A stretch of DNA of 38,673 nt, from contig JADGJA010000131.1 in assembly GCA_027596035.1 (NCBI GenBank), forward strand, positions 1 to 38,673, read 5' to 3'. Positions 5,359 through 37,549 of the stretch are shown one piece after another (positions within the stretch are counted from its first letter, which is position 1; every line of letters starts with the position of its first letter). A program made the translations under genes and the position numbers. Source of the stretch: Thoreauomyces humboldtii. Its lineage: Eukaryota; Chytridiomycota; Chytridiomycetes; Spizellomycetales; Powellomycetaceae. The notes beneath the pieces were generated by a model. It had not been told where the DNA came from, searched no databases, and saw nothing but the letters and a program-made list of their open reading frames with translations.

Positions 5359-6885
5359 ATGCTCACCTCCCGCATGGTCAGCCTCCCACGGGGGCGGACC
5401 TCCCGCCTTGGCATGCTTGCCGTCCTCACCGTCGTGATGATATATTGTCTCTACACCGCCGTGAACGACACCGAAGCCATCGATGCGGCTACCGGCGGCA
5501 TGCACGAGAACGCAAAGGTCAATCGTCTTCTCCACCAACCGGGATCACCCTACTCCCGAGCCGACCTGAGCTACTCGAAGAAGGCTGGCATGAACCTTGT
5601 CTCGGTGGACGCCGTGTCCTCCAACGCGACGTTGGTGAACGATGGGTCAAGCGTTCGAGTCAGGGGTGTCTTGGTGATGCTGGCTAGGAACTCGGACGCG
5701 AAGGGTGCGGCTAGCAGCATCCAGAGCCTGCAGGAGAGGTTCAACGATCGGTTCGACTATCCTTTCGTGTTCTTGAACGACAAGCCGTTCGACGAGGCGT
5801 TCAAAACGAAGATGAGGGAGGTGGCTCCTAGGAGCGAACTCATGTTCGGACTGATACCAAAGGAACACTGGTCGTACCCCGACTGGATCGATCAGGAGAA
5901 GGCCGCGCAGGTCCGGAAAGAGATGCGCGAGAAAGAGATCATCTACGGAGGGTCTGAGCCTTACCGGCACATGTGTCGATACAATTCCGGATTCTTCTAC
6001 CGTCATCCCCTTCTGGATGAGTTCGACTACTATTGGAGGGTGGAACCGGACGTCAAGTTCGGATGCGACATCAGCGACGATCCCTTCCGATACATGCAGG
6101 AGAACAACAAGCTGTACGGGTTCACCATCTCCCTGTACGAGTACGGAACCACCATCGAGACGCTGTGGAAGACGTCGAGGGACTACATGAAGGCCTACCC
6201 GAATCGGATCCGATCCGACAATGCACTCGCCTTCCTAACCAACAACGGCGACCTCGAAAAGTACAACCGATGTCACTTTTGGTCCAACTTTGAGATTGCA
6301 TCCCTTCACCTCTGGCGATCGAAGGCATATACTGACTACTTCGACCACCTCGACCGTGCCGGTGGATTCTTCTACGAACGATGGGGTGACGCTCCCGTCC
6401 ACTCCATCGGAGCAGCCATGATCCTCAAACCCGAACAGATACACTTTTTCAACAACATTGGATACTTCCACAACCCGTTCCAGCATTGTCCCGTCGACCA
6501 ACCTGCCTTCGCCGACAAGTGTCAGTGCGACGGCGTGAAGAACTTTGACATGAAGGGCTTCAGCTGCACACGAAAGTGGTTCGACCTGTACGGCGGCGGG
6601 GAGGACAACATCGAGGCGGAGAAGATCAGGGTCGTGAACGAGGGGATCCAAAAAGCCGAGGTTGCGAAGACCAAGTTGGCGGAGGATAAGAGCAAGGCCG
6701 CAAAGCAGGAGGAGGAACACAAGCGACGAGCGGCGGAGAAGGAGAAGGCCGACAAGCTGAAGAACAAGAACGCTGTCAACGTGGAGGCGAGAAACGATCG
6801 TGGTGCGGAAACGGAGACTCCCCACGAGGCGAGGACGAGGAAGATCGTGGAATCGATCGAAGCTTCCGCCGCATTTCGAGGTTGA
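5359..6885 (+). CDS. Golgi alpha-1,2-mannosyltransferase, GT15 (KRE2/MNT1/KTR) family
   Basis: A single-exon gene of 508 residues. It is a type II membrane protein: a short basic cytosolic tail (RGRTSRLG), then a hydrophobic anchor around residues 18-35 (MLAVLTVVMIYCLYTAV), then the lumenal catalytic domain. GT15 hallmarks are clear: YRHMCRYNSGFFYRH from residue 202, YYWRVEPDV from 224 (the metal/nucleotide-binding EPDV), the HFWSNFEI block, and GGFFYERWGDAPVHSI from 335. The family transfers mannose from GDP-mannose to O- and N-linked mannan in the Golgi. The last 90 or so residues are an unusual highly charged Lys/Glu/Ala coiled-coil tail (for example KQEEEHKRRAAEKEKADKLK), absent from classical KRE2 proteins. 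It lies immediately downstream of GDP-mannose pyrophosphorylase, the donor-making enzyme. Confidence 0.95.
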   Translation: MLTSRMVSLPRGRTSRLGMLAVLTVVMIYCLYTAVNDTEAIDAATGGMHENAKVNRLLHQPGSPYSRADLSYSKKAGMNLVSVDAVSSNATLVNDGSSVRVRGVLVMLARNSDAKGAASSIQSLQERFNDRFDYPFVFLNDKPFDEAFKTKMREVAPRSELMFGLIPKEHWSYPDWIDQEKAAQVRKEMREKEIIYGGSEPYRHMCRYNSGFFYRHPLLDEFDYYWRVEPDVKFGCDISDDPFRYMQENNKLYGFTISLYEYGTTIETLWKTSRDYMKAYPNRIRSDNALAFLTNNGDLEKYNRCHFWSNFEIASLHLWRSKAYTDYFDHLDRAGGFFYERWGDAPVHSIGAAMILKPEQIHFFNNIGYFHNPFQHCPVDQPAFADKCQCDGVKNFDMKGFSCTRKWFDLYGGGEDNIEAEKIRVVNEGIQKAEVAKTKLAEDKSKAAKQEEEHKRRAAEKEKADKLKNKNAVNVEARNDRGAETETPHEARTRKIVESIEASAAFRG

Positions 6886-12142: not shown

Positions 12143-12213
12143 TGCTCCCTGCGAGAATTGAACTCGCGTTCCTGCCGCCACAAGGCAGTGTTCTGCCACT
12201 AAACTAAGGAAGC
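12143..12213 (-). tRNA. tRNA-His (GTG)
   Basis: A 71-nt cloverleaf including the discriminator A, with no intron. The acceptor stem GCTTCCT pairs with AGGGAGC (one G-U). The D arm is GTTTAGTGGCAGAAC. The anticodon stem CTGCC/GGCAG holds the loop TTGTGGC, giving anticodon GTG. The T arm is GCGAG-TTCAATT-CTCGC. No extra 5' G is encoded in the acceptor stem, which fits the post-transcriptional G-1 addition of eukaryotic tRNA-His. Its 5' half and upstream flank are duplicated in a tandem array right next to it. Confidence 0.9.
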
Positions 12214-12517
12214 CCTTGGGTTAGGAACGGTTTCTCTACGCTACTTGATGCTTTCCAGATGCGGCAGTGTCTGCCACTAAACTGAGGAAGCGGTTGGGTT
12301 AGGAACGGTTTCTCTACGCTACTTGATGCTTTCCAGATGCGGCAGTGTCTGCCACTAAACTCAGGAAGCCCTTGGGTTAGGAACGGTTTCTCTACGCTAC
12401 TTGATGCTTTCCTGCTCGCACAAGGCAGTGTCTGCCACTAAACTAAGGAAGCGGTTGGGTTAGGAACGGTTTCTCTACGCTACTTGATGCTTTCCTTTGG
12501 CCACAGGGCGGCAGTGT
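12184..12517 (-). repeat. Tandem array of tRNA-His 5' halves plus upstream flank
   Basis: Units begin at 12184 (inside the intact tRNA), 12263, 12341 and 12424, with periods of 79, 78 and 83 nt, and a degenerate fifth start at 12510. Read on the minus strand, each unit contains about 45 nt of upstream flank (the block spelled AACGGTTTCTCTACGC on the plus strand) followed by the tRNA 5' half. That half runs from the acceptor strand through the D arm to the anticodon stem CACTGCC. The T arm and 3' acceptor strand occur only in the intact gene. The unit starting at 12424 extends further and keeps the GTG anticodon loop. The acceptor bases vary slightly between units (CTTCCT, CTTCCTC, CTTCCTG). 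Confidence 0.9.
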
Positions 12518-13093: not shown

Positions 13094-14103
13094 CTAGTCC
13101 CAGATCCCGCCACCAATACCAGTCCCCGTGGCAGGTCTTCCCTGAGCCTGAACATTCTGGCTTGTTCCGTTCCGAGCCAAAGCCCGCTCCCTCTGTGCCG
13201 CCTTCTCCTTCTCCGCGAGAGCGGCAATGTGGGCTCTCTCCTGATTCCGTCGATGCTCACGGAGGGCAATGGACTGATCATCCTGCATGGATTGTTTCGC
13301 GAGTTTGACGCGTTCCGCCTTGCGTTGGTTCTCCCTCTGCTTTTTGGTCAAAGTCTCCGAGGATGAAGAATTTGACTTTGTCGACGAAAAGGATGGGGTA
13401 GAAGTCGTGGTAGCTGGACGGATGGAGATGGAGCGAGGTTTGGCAGGTTTTCCTGGCGTGACGAGATGAGCAGAGCGACGAAGGAAGATGCGTGTTTTCT
13501 TATGCAAAACATACTGTTGACGACATCGACCATGGACCAACCGTCCTCCCCTGACACGTCATTCGCCGAGACTTCCTCAGGACCCTTCACTCGCAGGACG
13601 CGCGCAAGCTCTCCTTCGTCATCGGAATCCAGATCCATGTCGGGTTTATGGGTGCCAGCGGCAGACGGTGGAGCAGCCACTGGCAGAGCCGGAAACTCTT
13701 CCTCTCGCCTCGCGGCCTCCTGCTTCCTAGCGGCCTGAAGAAGCTGCTTCGTGGACTGATGTTTCTGCGACTGCTGCTGCTTCTTCTGCGGTGCTTCTGG
13801 TGCCGGTACCTGAGCTGGAATCGAGGGGGTTTTTGCGGGTCGTTTGTTGACTGCAGAGACGGACGTCGAGGGGGAGAGAGCTGGGGATACGAGGACGGCA
13901 TCCGTGTCGGAATCCAGGCTTGCTTTAGTCGCGGTTATGGAGTCCTTTGCTGATGACTTCTTCTTCTTCTTGTTCTTTTTCGCTTTGGCGGAAACATCGG
14001 TGGTCGGAGAACCTGTGGTGGGTGGTGATGGTGCGGCTGCTGGACCGACCGCCCAGAAATAGACGACGAGCGCACCCACGAGAAAAGCGATCATCACGTT
14101 CAT
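13094..14103 (-). CDS. N-terminally anchored basic/low-complexity protein of unknown function
   Basis: Exons 14103-13515 and 13452-13094, with a 62-nt intron (GTATGT...GCCAG, phase 1), encode 315 residues. The N-terminus is a hydrophobic segment (MIAFLVGALVVYFWAV, about residues 4-19) that would insert as a signal anchor. Next come a lysine run (AKKNKKKKKSSAK) and Ala/Pro/Ser-rich sequence. A Gln/Lys-rich helix follows (APQKKQQQSQKHQSTKQLL), then EEFPALP, then an acidic DSDDEGE patch, and finally GEDGWSMVDVVN at the exon end. Exon 2 is a charged helix (KKQRENQRKAERVKLAKQ) ending GIGGGIWD. The overall plan, an ER-type anchor with a cytosolic basic coiled tail, recalls ribosome-associated membrane proteins, but I recognise no family. 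It is transcribed divergently from the cupin gene. Confidence 0.75.
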
Positions 14104-14807
14104 GTTTAGACGGAGAGACCTGGAGAGGCAGCTTGGATTGGGACTTGTCTTATGTGTGTGGATGAACGATTGCGGTTCAACGCTTCAACGTGTTGCTGTG
14201 CGCTGGACGGCACTGGGGATTGGTCACTTTATGATCTGCTGCGCCCCCCGTCGTCGCAAGCCCCATCCTCGTAAGGATCTACCTTACCTTCTTTGCAATT
14301 CATGCGGGAATGGTGAGAACTGCTCAAGAGATATGTACAGGTCGATAACGGTCCAAGGGAGGTACAGTCCAATGAAAGAGAGGCGGTCTGTACATTGCAA
14401 GGTTTGATTTCCGAGAAGGGGTGCAAGAGCCCGGACCATTCAGAACTTGGCAGCCCATACTTCTCGATGGCCAACTTCACACACACAAACACCTCGCTAG
14501 TCTAGAACTTCTGCCGCAGAACTTTATCGCTGGAGCAAACCCTTGTGGCCGTCCCCAAGGGCCGGGTCGCTAGGGGTCGCTACCTTTTCCTCACGCATGA
14601 GCCGCTGTCGAATTGTCTCGTCCACGCCCCAGTGCCCCAGTCCACGCCGTCGTCCTTCGGAATCCCACCGGTCGGGGCTGAAGCTTTGCGGTCGCTATCT
14701 ACGGACCACCTCTGGACCTTTTCACGTCAAGTCTTGTGATAAGTTCAGAAGATGTTGCCGTCAACCCCCGCCGCTTCGAGTCCATTGCCACATTCTACGT
14801 GCCATCG
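14104..14807. promoter_or_regulatory. Shared divergent promoter region
   Basis: A 700-nt region between the divergent anchored-protein and cupin genes. No coding signature was found. The in-frame stretch just upstream of the cupin ATG begins with GTG and lacks conservation signals, so it was left as leader. Confidence 0.4.
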
Positions 14808-19633: not shown

Positions 19634-22600
19634 ATGTCGACACGAACGATGACACAGAGCCAGCTCTTGGATGCCGAACAAGTGCTAGGTGCAACCTTAG
19701 CAGACTTACAGGCCAACATCGTCAAAGAACAGCAGCTCAAGGACGCAGCAGCTCGCATGGCATCAGCGCACACGCAGAAGAAGGCTAGGAAGGAGGCCGA
19801 AAACCAGGTCATTGGTGAGTTTTCGTGAGGACTTCTTCCGAAGGATGGAAGGGACCGGCGAGGAACAAGGACATCATGCGAGCGATATTTTCTGCTCGGA
19901 TGAAAACACAGTATCGAGTCGGTTCACGTACTTACCGTCTCCTTCTCTCCTTCTCTCCTTCTCTCTTCCTGTCACGTAGTCTGCGGTCAGCGCTTGGAAC
20001 AGCTCGTCGGTCAAGTCTTCAATGTCCTTACCCGTTACAAGGAAGTAACGGACTGTATTCGCACCAACACTCAAGCGGACCATCGCCAAAGCCAGTCTCC
20101 GAGAGCTGAACATAATCCGCCAGTTCCTGTGAGTGGGACATGGCGAACGGCAATTCAATGGTTCATTTACTGACATTGCTTACACAGCCACCTCGCACGC
20201 GTGCGACGGAGGTTCAAGACAGAGGACATGCTCGCGGGAGCAACTCAGGAGCACCTATCACACCGCCTCGTCCGCCGGTCAACGAAGGCTCATCGGGAGC
20301 AGCTACGGGCACGGATGTGTCGCCGAGGACCTCCGGATCGGAACTCTCCGACACTGGAGCTGCCATCAACGCGAACGAAGAGGACCAAACGAGAAAACTG
20401 AGAAAGCAAGTCGTTGCCTTGCAACACGAGCTGGCGCGACAGGATCAAGAAACTGTGACGCTCGCTGCCCTTCTGAAGGAGGCTGAAGATTGGGTTCGCG
20501 ACGATCAGAAAAAAGCCAAGAAGTTCGTAAAGGCGAAGGAGGAACTCGAGGTCCGCCTGGCGAACGTTACGCGCGAGCTCGAGGACACCCAGCGTTTGGC
20601 CTCAGACCAGAGAGCTGAGATCGAATCCGCTTGGGGATCCGCTTCCGTGTCTCAGATGAACGAATACGAAGATCACATCCAGGAATTGAAGCGAGAAAAG
20701 GCCGTCCTGATCGCGCAGGTCAACGCCTGTCAGACTGTGATGGGAGAGTACGAGGGTCAAATAGAGAACCTCGCACGTGTCAACGAGACGCGCTTGGCGG
20801 AAATCGCACGCCTTCAGAGCGTCGCAAAGGAGTTGAAGCTGGTCGAGGAGGAGAAATCGACCTTGTGTGAGAAGCTCGAGATGCGCAATGCCTCCCTGGA
20901 CGCTTTGGAATCCGAACACGGTCGCCTCATTGCCTTCGTCTCGGAGCTTCAGGAGAAGCTGAGCGTCTCAGCTCAGACTGGACCCCTGGAGCCGGACATG
21001 TCAACCGCGGACGATGGCAGTGACAAGGAACACGAGTCTAAGAAGCTGAACGCGGACCTCGCAGCCGCGATGCTCACCATCGCCGATCTGCAGAAGCAAA
21101 TAGAAGCAGCATCGCTGAAGAACGGCGAGCTCGCAAAGGCTGCTGAGGTAACCCACCTTGCCGAACTCACGGCACTTGGCCGTCACATCGAGACCGCGCA
21201 GGCGGATGCCAGGGCCGCTGAAGAGGTCCACCTCTCTGAGCGAGACCACCTGCAGTGCGAGATCACTCGCGTCCAGGAGGCACATGCTGCCGACGTACAG
21301 AAATTGAACGCGATCGTCACAGGACTCGAGCAGGCCTTTCGAGCCGAGGTTGCCAAACTGAATGACGTGATCACAGAGCAAAAGGTTGTGACGGACGCTA
21401 TCAGGGCGGAACTGGCGGAGTCTCGCCAAGTCCAAGCGAGCCACTTTGAACTTGTCAAGACTCTGAAAGCAGAAAAGGCTGCAGGAGACCTCGTCGTTGC
21501 AGACCTCGAGCAGGGCCACCAAGCCGAGGTCGGCAAGTTGACCGACGTCATCACCGAGCAAAAGGCGATGATGGACGCTATCACGGCGGAACTGACGGAG
21601 TCACGCAGAGTCCAAGCGAGCCACTCTGAACTCGTCAAGACTCTGAAAGCGCAAAAGGCTGCAGAAGATGTCGTCATCGCGGACCTCGAGCAGGACCACC
21701 AAGCCGAGGTGGCCAAGCTGACCGCCGTCATCACCGAGCAAAAGGCCCAGATGGACGCTATCAGGGCGGAACTGGCGGAGTCTCGCCAAGTCCAAGCGAG
21801 CCACTTTGAACTTGTCAAGACTCTGAAAGCGNNNNNNNNNNNNNNNNNNNNNNNNNNNNNNNNNNNNNNNNNNNNNNNNNNNNNNNNNNNNNNNNNNNNN
21901 NNNNNNNNNNNNNNNNNNNNNNNNNNNNGCAGAAAAGGCTGCAGGAGACCTCGTCATTGCAGACCTCGAGCAGGGCCACCAAGCCGAGGTCGGCAAATTG
22001 ACCGACGTCATCACCGAGCAAAAGGCCCAGATGGACGCTATCAGGGCGGAACTGGCGGAGTCTCGCGAAGTCCAAGCGAGCCACTCCGAACGTGTCAAGA
22101 CTCTGGAAGCGCACAAGGCGGCGGGAGACGTTGTCATCGCAGACCTCGAGCAGGGCCACCAAGCCGCGGTCGGCAAATTGACCGACCTCATCACCGAGCA
22201 AAAGGCTGTGATGGACGCTATCACGGCGGAACTGACGGAGTCACGGCAAGTCCGAGCAAGCCACACCGAACACGTCAAGACTCTGGAAGCGCAGAAGGCG
22301 GCGGCAGACGTTGTCATCGCAGATCTCGAGCAGACGCAGCAAGCCGAGATCATCAAGCTCACGGAGGTGATCACTGAGCAGAAGGCTTCGACAGACGCTA
22401 TCATCGCGGATCTTGAGCAGGCGCAACAAGTCGAAGTGGCCAACCTGAAAGAAGTCATCGGCAAGCAGAAGGGCGCAACAGATGCTATCATCGCTGAGCT
22501 TGAGCGTGCTCAGCAACTCGAGATCACCAAGCTCAAGGAAGATCTCGAGACGCAGCGTGCGACAGCATCGAAAGCCAGCGACGAGCTCAAGGAGACGAAC

Positions 22601-32600: not shown

Positions 32601-33864
32601 TTGATCGTTTAGCAGTCCTCCTCGATACTCTGCACATGCCAACATAATGAGATACATGTTGTATTTACTCGTCGGCAGACTTGACTTACCATCAAGAATG
32701 TTCGTCTCCTTTTCCATATGCGCACGCAGCCTGTCCTTGGCCGTGTGAAATGCTCGCAGTAATCGACCGTCCGCCTGTGAAATTTGATGAATAACAACTT
32801 CAAAGAATCGGAAGCCGTTGTACCCCATACCTTTCCTTTCGCCGCCGTTAAACCTGCCTGCATAGTCTTGACAGCGAGGATCTTCTCTCTGTATGCGTTC
32901 ACGAGCTGAAATACAGCTTGTATCTTTTCGTCAATCAGCTCGATCTGCTGGTCATAGATCGTTTGCAGATGGACCAGCGTGTGTGATTTGTGCTGTAGAG
33001 ATGTTGCCAGTGTGAGACCCTATCGTATCTCTCTCTGTCTAAGCTGCGAGATAGTCACTCACCCTGTCGCCAATCACAACGCAGTCGGGACAGATGGCCT
33101 CTCGACAGTGTTGACAAAAGTAATAGAACGGAACACCATGCTCAGAGCAAAGGTCGCCTGGAGTCTCTACAGACGCAATGTCGGCTTCTGAAACATTCTC
33201 GCACATCACATTCCGGAGTTGCTGATGATTCGAGGAGTCAGCTAAGGTTCTGAAGGTTGCGAGCAAGTGTGGACACAAAGTCACGAACCTGAGCCAAGTC
33301 GTCCACAAAGCGACATTGCACGAGCTCATGATCGAGCAGGTATGCGCGGCAGTGTGGACAATCCGAACGGTTGGCAAGCCAGGTCTAGGGGCACTCGAGC
33401 GCGTTAATTCCTGGGAGAGGCCGAGTGCACGCCTTGATTCGAACCCACCTTCAAGCACTTTTCGCAGCCTATCTTGCTACAGCTAGGACACATGACAGGC
33501 TTGTCGAACTCTCCGAAACATATGAAGCATTTGAACCTGGCAAGCGTAAAGCATTCTCCGTTAGCTGCATTTCCTCGAACTGTGCTTTGAGAAGTGAGCC
33601 TCCGACGCGCAAGGAAAGGGAATCATACACTCACATGTCATCCAGAACACGCGAGACCCCACCACCGCCTTTGGCATCCTGCCTGCGGTTCTTTCTCCGG
33701 TCCTTTGGACTTTGAGGAAAGCGTTCTGCTATGGGCGCGGCACTCGACCGTGCATCCCGACGGGACGTTGAGGAGGTGGTGCCGTGAAGGGAAGCCGAAG
33801 GAGATATTCTGCGAGACTCTCTTCCCGCCCTTGCTCCATCAGAAAGGGTTGAAGCTGGTCTCAT
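29689..33864 (-). CDS. TRIM37-like E3 ubiquitin ligase (RING, B-box, coiled coil, MATH)
   Basis: Thirteen minus-strand exons: 33864-33635, 33536-33449, 33384-33285, 33241-33063, 32992-32831, 32774-32690, 32629-32499, 32439-32316, 32273-32247, 32183-32071, 32021-31810, 31735-30985 and 30918-29689, giving 1143 residues. The RING reads FKCFICFGEFDKPVMCPSC...CEKCLK then WLANRSDCPHCRAYLL (about 77-120). The B-box is LCSEHGVPFYYFCQHC...ICPDC followed by HKSHTLVHLQ. A coiled coil (about 200-320) leads to a MATH domain assembled from five short exons: ATMVIPHFSRASHLG, WRLRVHCNG, GFCISIYLELIHGS, FRIELVDVDA, and ADFKMGASAGYDYFWPLDRL, ending at HIAQLEI (about residue 487). This order is diagnostic of TRIM37. 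The 650-residue tail is low complexity with an acidic run. In animals TRIM37 acts on centrosomes, peroxisomes and chromatin; the role here is unknown. The 43-nt intron at 33242-33284 is uncertain. Confidence 0.88.
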
Positions 33865-36700: not shown

Positions 36701-37549
36701 CTACACGAGGAACCAGGACACGGCAGCGACGCAGACCGCCGATGCCACCGCTCCAGCTGCGGCGCTCTTTCCAGCCGAAGAGTACGAGTCCTCGGTGCTA
36801 CGCTTCTCGACGCGTGGGTCTCCGTGAACGAGACGAGACGAAGGGTCCCGCTTCTCGACGTTCGCCTCGGCAGGGATCACCCGAGGATCGCGCTTCTCGA
36901 CGTCCGCCTCGGCAGGGATCACCCGAGGATCACGCTTCTCGACGTTCGCCTCGGCAGGGATCACCCGAGGATCACGCTTCTCGACGTCGGCGTTCATCCA
37001 GCGAGGATCACGCTTCTCGACGTTCGCCTCGGCAGGGATCACCCGAGGATCACGTTTCTCGACATTCGCCTCGGCAGGGATCACCCGAGGATCACGCTTC
37101 TCGACGTTGGCGTCGGCTTCGGCATAGCGGATGCGAGGATCCCGCTTCTCGACGTCGGCGTCGGCTTCGGCGTAACGGATGCGAGGATCCCGCTTCTCGA
37201 CGTCGGCGTCCATCCAGCGAGGGTCGCGCTTTTCAACGTCTGCGTTCATCCATCGGGGGTCGCGCTTCTCGACGTCTGCGTTCATCCATCGGGGGTCACG
37301 CTTCTCGACGTCGGCGTTCATCCATCGGGGGTCCCGCTTCTCGACGTCGGCGTTCATCCATCGGGGGTCACGCTTCTCGACATCAGCGTCCATCCATCGG
37401 GGGTCACGCTTCTCGACGTCGGCGTCCATCCACCGGGGGTCGCGCTTCTCGATGTCGGCGTTGTAATGTTTGAGAGGGTCGGCGACGACACCGTTGAGGA
37501 GGACGGAAGCAGCAGCGACGGCGATAATCTGAGACTTGAGGTTCACCAT
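36701..37549 (-). CDS. KEX2-processed repeat-peptide precursor with signal peptide and GPI-like tail
   Basis: A single-exon gene of 282 residues. The ATG at 37549 was chosen because it opens a signal peptide (about residues 1-23, ending NGVVA); the frame upstream is not signal-like. Residues 24-36 are a short pro-region ending EKR. Residues 37-250 are sixteen tandem units, each ending EKR, so there are 17 Lys-Arg sites for a KEX2-type protease. Unit classes are DPRWM(D/N)ADVEKR (8 copies), DPRIRYAEADA(D/N)VEKR (2), DPRVIPAEA(N/D)VEKR (5) and a final divergent unit starting DPSSRL. The last 32 residues (small residues SSAGKS, then AAAGAVASAVCVAAVSWFLV) look like a GPI-attachment signal or membrane anchor. 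The plan matches fungal KEX2-processed repeat proteins (mating alpha-factor, repellents, some RiPPs), but the core peptides match none I know. No tailoring enzyme is seen nearby. Confidence 0.9.
   Translation of the reverse strand: MVNLKSQIIAVAAASVLLNGVVADPLKHYNADIEKRDPRWMDADVEKRDPRWMDADVEKRDPRWMNADVEKRDPRWMNADVEKRDPRWMNADVEKRDPRWMNADVEKRDPRWMDADVEKRDPRIRYAEADADVEKRDPRIRYAEADANVEKRDPRVIPAEANVEKRDPRVIPAEANVEKRDPRWMNADVEKRDPRVIPAEANVEKRDPRVIPAEADVEKRDPRVIPAEANVEKRDPSSRLVHGDPRVEKRSTEDSYSSAGKSAAAGAVASAVCVAAVSWFLV
36800..37441 (-). repeat. Coding tandem repeats of 36, 42 and 48 nt
   Basis: In coding order: seven 36-nt DPRWM units (37441-37190), two 48-nt DPRIRY units (37189-37094), two 42-nt DPRVIP units, one stray 36-nt DPRWM unit (37009-36974), three more DPRVIP units, and one 48-nt divergent unit ending at 36800. 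Lengths are all multiples of three, so the frame is kept through every unit. Confidence 0.95.

Follow-up and report, generated by a model that had tools for sequence, protein, structure and literature searches.

Gene A and its repeat array

Near one end of the window (the whole 38,673-nucleotide stretch of DNA that was analyzed, contig C37 of its assembly) lies gene A, which encodes a predicted secreted precursor built of short repeats separated by Lys-Arg (KR) sites. Its parts are listed in Table 1.

Table 1. Coordinates of gene A and its parts within the window
Feature	Position	Strand	Remarks
Gene A coding sequence	36701..37549	minus	282 aa plus stop (36701-36703), read as a single exon; based on translation and unit differences
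Signal-peptide-like start, residues 1-23	37481..37549	minus	Cleavage predicted after ...GVVA
Short pro-segment DPLKHYNADIEKR	37442..37480	minus	First KR at its end
DPRWM[D/N]ADVEKR units, n=7	37190..37441	minus	
DPRIRYAEADA[D/N]VEKR units, n=2	37094..37189	minus	
DPRVIPAEANVEKR units (DPRVIP class), n=2	37010..37093	minus	
DPRWM unit no. 8	36974..37009	minus	DPR codons GAT CCT CGC, those of the DPRIRY units
DPRVIPAEA[N/D]VEKR units, n=3	36848..36973	minus	
Divergent final unit DPSSRLVHGDPRVEKR	36800..36847	minus	
C-terminal segment STEDSYSSAGKSAAAGAVASAVCVAAVSWFLV, with small residues ahead of a hydrophobic end	36704..36799	minus	GPI-signal-like or membrane tail, at pattern level

Split at its KR sites, the gene A product falls into a 36-residue leader ending in NADIEKR, 16 units, and a 32-residue tail. 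The 17 KR sites reported in the initial annotation were all counted in the translation; 16 of them read VEKR and one reads IEKR, and the residues that follow are DPR at 15 sites, DPS at one, and STE at one. The same annotation had sorted the 16 units into three classes. Their number stands, but only 15 can be so classed (eight DPRWM, two DPRIRY, and five DPRVIP), and the last (DPSSRLVHGDPRVEKR) is divergent. Net of KR, the 16 units measure 10 to 14 residues; a KEX2-processed repeat protein (KEP) is expected to have three or more repeats, each 8 residues or longer, between dibasic sites.

The signal peptide and the hydrophobic C-terminal tail with small residues ahead of it, both proposed earlier, were recovered at the level of hydropathy (mean over 15-residue windows). 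The N terminus peaks at 2.39 over residues 8 to 22, with small residues at -3 and -1 of the predicted cleavage site as judged by eye; the tail, within segment STEDSYSSAGKSAAAGAVASAVCVAAVSWFLV, reaches 2.32, and the repeat region is always at or below -0.61. Tandem Repeats Finder detected periods of 42, 48, and 36 bases and one row of 120 over the blocks of the gene. The eighth DPRWM unit carries DPR codons of the DPRIRY type, which suggests an exchange of pieces within the array.

The gene A array is under coding constraint and is not a chance repeat. Like units differ by 21 distinct base changes, 18 of which are silent; the three non-silent changes are all Asp/Asn. Random placement of 21 changes would give 15.3 non-silent ones, and three or fewer were reached in none of 5,000 simulations, with units treated as a star and each distinct change counted once within the three classes. 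At codon positions 1, 2, and 3, variable sites numbered 1, 0, and 8 across the 12 codons of the eight DPRWM units, 1, 0, and 3 across the 14 codons of the five DPRVIP units, and 1, 0, and 3 across the 16 codons of the two DPRIRY units.

A paralogue with the same core and a third gene with a shared leader

The window's own assembly (G000; 20.7 Mb in 823 contigs) was searched with gene A, and apart from gene A itself two stretches were found on contig C422, which make up gene B. Its product, of 236 aa, opens with a signal-like start and a pro-region and carries seven units such as DPRWMNMAIPAKPSGAAADVEKR; the last unit ends at the stop codon without KR (...VVPDVKG) and is followed by no hydrophobic tail. 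The gene has a GT-AG intron of 69 bases, in phase 2 according to its coordinates. All seven KR sites read VEKR followed by DPR, and DPRWM is identical in every unit. The proposal of a peptide family is thereby borne out, a second locus encoding the DPRWM core between identical processing sites.

Gene B encodes two predicted peptide forms: units with Asn continue as MAIP (3/7), and those with Asp continue as IAVP (4/7). In both genes, Asp and Asn alternate at the same position of the unit. What genes A and B have in common is EKR, DPRWM, and this Asp/Asn residue, and what follows differs, so that the peptide start may be taken as the recognized part. Variation within gene B was counted over six of its seven units, the last being left out. 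In the four units of 23 residues, codon positions 1, 2, and 3 vary at 4, 3, and 15 of 23 codons, and in the two other units at 2, 0, and 7 of 25; outside DPRWM the units do change amino acids, with 7 first or second positions against 15 third positions variable in the former set.

The leader of gene B in turn matched a third gene, gene C, on contig C45 (E value of 4.5e-10 in the genome search). Compared by BLASTP as a single pair, the two leaders agree at 47% over 76 aa (E value of 3e-15), and VFPV.GGTWV.I and EL.RR are among the invariant stretches. The gene C model (L055 1498-1915; C45 match at 13933-14157) has 115 aa and a 70-base phase 2 intron, and it continues through an AEAEVNVE spacer and SRK into a single, unrelated hydrophobic peptide, FGGRILSVALPILKGVTAKEN. 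The intron precedes the peptide cassette in both gene B and gene C. Since genes A and B share the unit and genes B and C share the leader, the precursors appear to have swapped cassettes.

No accepted Pfam family was found in genes A, B, and C; genes A and B each gave one match, below the cut-off. Within 600 bases upstream, the three genes had no promoter word in common beyond chance and no 8-mer present in all three. Shared upstream 10-mers numbered two for A-B, none for A-C, and two for B-C, against shuffled means of 1.38, 1.06, and 1.16.

Searches for homologues

The core peptides had been said to match none that was recognized, and the searches agree. Among about 5.8 billion proteins, gene A had no homologue at an E value of 0.001 (7,999 candidates scored) and gene B had none at an E value of 1 (8,000 candidates scored); such searches score only the candidates sharing most words, and diverged relatives could escape them. 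The collection includes at least six chytrid genera. Gene finders often miss short repeat genes. Gene B was without a match among viral contigs and had a weak match on contig C612 (E value of 0.13) in the assembly. In literature text, DPRWM was found in a single paper, on rat protein acetylation and unrelated by its title.

Two gapped patterns with EKR spacing gave 12 and 11 matches in the assembly, all in the C37 and C422 arrays (backward-pattern controls, 2 and 3); because these patterns require GAG for Glu, other KEPs would be missed by them. The ungapped pattern EKRDPR gave 24 matches (control, 3), with 15 on C37, seven on C422, and one each on C408 and C818. The latter two were rejected as KEPs: no unit is repeated within 40 residues on either side, and the two stretches are unlike each other.

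The host genome

A mannosyltransferase gene elsewhere in the window (5359-6882) points to a chytrid in or near the family Powellomycetaceae (Spizellomycetales, Chytridiomycota) as the host, as far as the sequence of one gene can place it. Among the best 120 of 4,488 matches, the top score after the protein itself belonged to Thoreauomyces humboldtii (73% over 89% of the query), and the matches included Powellomyces hirtus (69% over 83%), Geranomyces variabilis (66% over 91%), Fimicolochytrium jonesii (65% over 66%), and Spizellomyces (59% over 84%). Mushroom proteins were interspersed in this set at 50 to 56% over 56 to 61%, with Marasmius tenuissimus second. Thoreauomyces, Powellomyces, Geranomyces, and Fimicolochytrium are the four named genera of Powellomycetaceae.

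Predicted processing and products

KEX2-type processing of the gene A precursor is very likely. The precursor would enter the ER, and a kexin would cut behind each KR. Candidates for this protease were found on contigs C132 and C365, where P-domain matches stand with subtilase matches alongside and a hydrophobic stretch, seen by eye, lies behind the P-domain. The match on C365 spans three stop codons, probably belonging to an intron, although a broken gene is conceivable. A putative carboxypeptidase would then trim KR from the gene A peptides. Asp-Pro follows 16 of the 17 KR sites in gene A and 7 of 7 in gene B, and all 23 units of the two genes begin with it; a dipeptidyl peptidase may take off this N-terminal pair. 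For that step, contig C808 holds a DPPIV-type peptidase with DPPIV_N matched over its whole length plus Peptidase_S9, with a hydrophobic stretch upstream in another frame, and a further DPPIV_N match, split in two pieces, was found on C213.

Each gene A precursor would in this way yield eight RWM[D/N]ADVE, five RVIPAEA[N/D]VE, and two RIRYAEADA[D/N]VE peptides, or the same peptides with DP still attached. The products of gene B would be longer but begin in the same way (RWM[D/N][I/M]A[V/I]P.KPSG and similar sequences). Computed [M+H]+ values are 1232.536 and 1233.520 for DPRWM[N/D]ADVE, 1309.675 for DPRVIPAEANVE, and 1618.782 for DPRIRYAEADANVE; without Asp-Pro they are 1020.457, 1021.441, 1097.595, and 1406.702. 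Example forms of gene B give 2254.081 and 2042.001.

Taken as a whole, the data are best explained by gene A being a secreted multicopy precursor of the KEP class that releases linear signal peptides in a chytrid host, a reading that we consider probable. The acidic ends of its peptides (ADVE and AEANVE) count against it, as they would remain in place unless another protease trims them.

Relation to known KEPs

The assignment to KEPs made in the initial annotation holds, given the signal-like start, the 16 units between KR sites, and the kexin-like genes in the genome. On sequence grounds, genes A and B are a new family within this known class: they share with other KEPs a signal-like start, three or more short repeats separated by dibasic sites, and kexin-type genes in the host genome, whereas the DPRWM, DPRIRY, and DPRVIP cores of gene A matched none in the searches. 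Gene A also differs in its hydrophobic tail and in carrying three core classes in one precursor, which is rare; PMC6339444 gives three motif types for 2 of 1,193 KEPs and two types for 77.

The class itself is already known in Chytridiomycota, for which PMC7329392 records 178 KEPs in 14 of 19 strains. The authors of PMC6339444 excluded any protein with a predicted membrane segment (TMHMM) from their KEP set, so gene A, with its tail, might have been dropped there; the detection section of PMC7329392 names no membrane-segment filter. Neither Spizellomyces nor GPI occurs in the main texts of these two surveys, and Powellomyces is absent from the main text of PMC7329392; the supplementary tables, which stand apart from these main texts, may list a relative without discussion.

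An X-Pro pair after the Kex2 site, the STE13 signature, is treated in PMC6339444 as a mark of candidate peptide hormones, and genes A and B carry it. Rep1 of Ustilago maydis is likewise a Kex2-cut repeat precursor, but it is described in PMC6339444 as lacking this signature, whereas every unit of genes A and B begins with Asp-Pro. The class is ordinary for fungi. The present case is of interest for its host, for the peptide start that genes on two contigs have in common, and for the exactly defined, testable peptides that it offers.

Proposed signaling and comparison with pheromones

The role of a signaling or surface peptide had been put forward as one of two options; we infer that signaling is the likeliest function. 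Unmodified linear peptides would signal between cells of one species through a receptor other than Ste2, and the N-terminal RWM[D/N] common to the gene A and gene B peptides would be the part recognized by it. That the peptides signal to their own kind is a tentative suggestion, which we hold at somewhat less than even chances. KEP-type precursors do give linear peptides in one fungus, Coprinopsis, according to PMC9769878; the same source describes KEP knockouts there as having no detectable phenotype, which counts against signaling.

Ascomycete alpha-factor precursors are one close comparison. They have the same prepro organization, tandem copies, KR sites, and X-Pro after the site, and the final copy in gene B runs to the stop codon with no KR after it, as in MFalpha1 (a likeness drawn in part from PMC6339444). 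Both X-Pro after the Kex2 sites and dipeptidyl peptidase matches (C808 and C213) are features of the alpha type. Genes A and B differ in the Ala-rich spacer before KR and in their cores, which have no significant similarity to alpha pheromones. When six cores were compared with six alpha-type pheromones, shuffled sequences did as well in 232 to 1,851 of 2,000 cases, and a likeness of the cores was rejected. The closest case, W..IAVPAKP of gene B against fission yeast P-factor, was equaled by shuffles in 297 and 232 of 2,000 for two gene B forms; for the other four cores the figures were 1,200 to 1,851. The Pfam family MF_alpha had no match in gene A or B.

With a chytrid rather than a member of Dikarya as the host, the discussion of receptor and function changes. 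STE2 is reported in PMC12842992 as exclusive to Ascomycota among 1,357 species, so the receptor for chytrid peptides would be of another type. Profiles of Ste2 (PF02116) and Ste3 each gave zero matches in the assembly, in a search without a positive control match. For Chytridiomycota, passages of PMC3251606 give no reliable Ste2, Ste3, or Git3 homologues and report eight rhodopsin-like sequences in Spizellomyces punctatus. Homologues of animal-type receptors are found mainly in early-diverging fungi; those of the rhodopsin type cluster in Entomophthoromycotina, and those of the glutamate type in Blastocladiomycota and Chytridiomycota (PMC12842992).

It is conceivable, though we regard it as doubtful, that a flagellated fungus uses the RWM[D/N] peptides of genes A and B as a pheromone or to signal aggregation and senses them through a receptor unrelated to Ste2, for example, an animal-like GPCR. 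If so, multicopy kexin-cut peptide signaling in fungi would not be tied to the Ste2 system of Ascomycota. No chytrid peptide pheromone was described by title or displayed abstract among the papers listed. The strictly kept start shared by two chytrid genes gives exact peptides that can be synthesized, which makes signaling in zoosporic fungi directly testable.

Alternative readings

The peptides could act on other organisms, as antimicrobials, toxins, or effectors, instead of on the producer's own cells; this is the strongest of the alternatives but an unlikely one. Some KEPs are the source of mycotoxins (PMC6339444), a role in interaction with the biotic environment has been suggested for the KEP peptides of Coprinopsis (PMC9769878), and gene C encodes a single hydrophobic peptide that could be of such a kind. 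Against this, the units of genes A and B contain no cysteine, the contigs of the three genes hold no UstYa match, and the gene A cores are conserved across the array instead of diverging.

Somewhat less probable still is that precursor A is GPI anchored at the membrane or wall as a surface protein, with its KR sites cut little or only at the surface. KEPs with surface roles do exist, Rep1 giving hypha-attached peptides (PMC6339444). The gene A tail has small residues followed by 13 residues of mean hydropathy 2.22 to its end; the simple omega/omega+2 rule holds at nine positions in the last 32 residues, so the rule is unspecific and the fit to a GPI signal is loose. GPI attachment is compatible with cutting at KR, so the tail is no bar to peptide release. 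If the GPI signal is real, attachment would take place in the ER, ahead of the cutting in the Golgi; the anchor would keep the precursor on the membrane as its peptides are set free, and the stub alone would stay anchored. Against a surface protein, gene B, with the same core, lacks any such tail, and the gene A units are short beside the longer peptides of Rep1.

Modified cyclic peptides of the ustiloxin (dikaritin) type are a very improbable product of gene A. UstYa (DUF3328) is best known from RiPP clusters of Dikarya, and ustiloxin-type cyclization uses Tyr, which the DPRWM and DPRVIP units lack. Dikaritin precursors do have the same KEP architecture, and one UstYa match was found in the assembly (C334:45088-45384, L027; 72 bits over profile positions 123-214), but it lies off the contigs of genes A, B, and C, none of which has a match of its own. 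Contigs C37 and C422 are 38.7 and 17.3 kb long, and beyond their ends only the C334 UstYa could be a missed neighbor. Its absence from C37, C422, and C45 makes unmodified peptides more likely. In PMC7329392, KEPs that carry a mating-factor or pheromone annotation are without accompanying DUF3328 genes, with three exceptions; this pattern fits a linear peptide, though it is no test of linearity. A kinesin-like frame, seen by eye, lies near the C334 match.

On the plus strand, a 331-aa open frame crosses the gene A array, the gene B repeat likewise has a long plus-strand frame (339 aa), and one antisense frame gave four non-silent changes of 21 (again in none of 5,000 simulations), the remaining four frames failing, so the silent-change test alone cannot fix the strand. 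The passing frame is the one that shares its wobble positions with the coding frame of gene A. The minus strand is favored by three features, namely, the signal-like start, protease sites of uniform sequence, and a paralogue of the same sense with a GT-AG intron and a shared leader, and a noncoding or antisense tandem repeat with the open frame as a by-product is extremely improbable.

Other features of the window and near gene B

Near gene B, two tandem copies encode a small protein that looks secreted and has a Thr-rich region (L004 101-761 and 1972-2542). In the window itself, a 15-kb part carries four tRNA-Lys(CTT) genes, distributed over the two strands (10037, 10390, 17562, and 24398). 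In the interval 12143-12495, a tRNA-His call runs into the beginning of a tandem repeat that has about four copies of 78 bases. A long open frame at 21342-22410 contains internal tandem repeats of about 180 bases, looks coiled-coil-like by eye, and is broken by a run of N. A B-box zinc finger (Pfam PF00643; E value of 9.7e-07) is encoded on the minus strand at 33039-33476.
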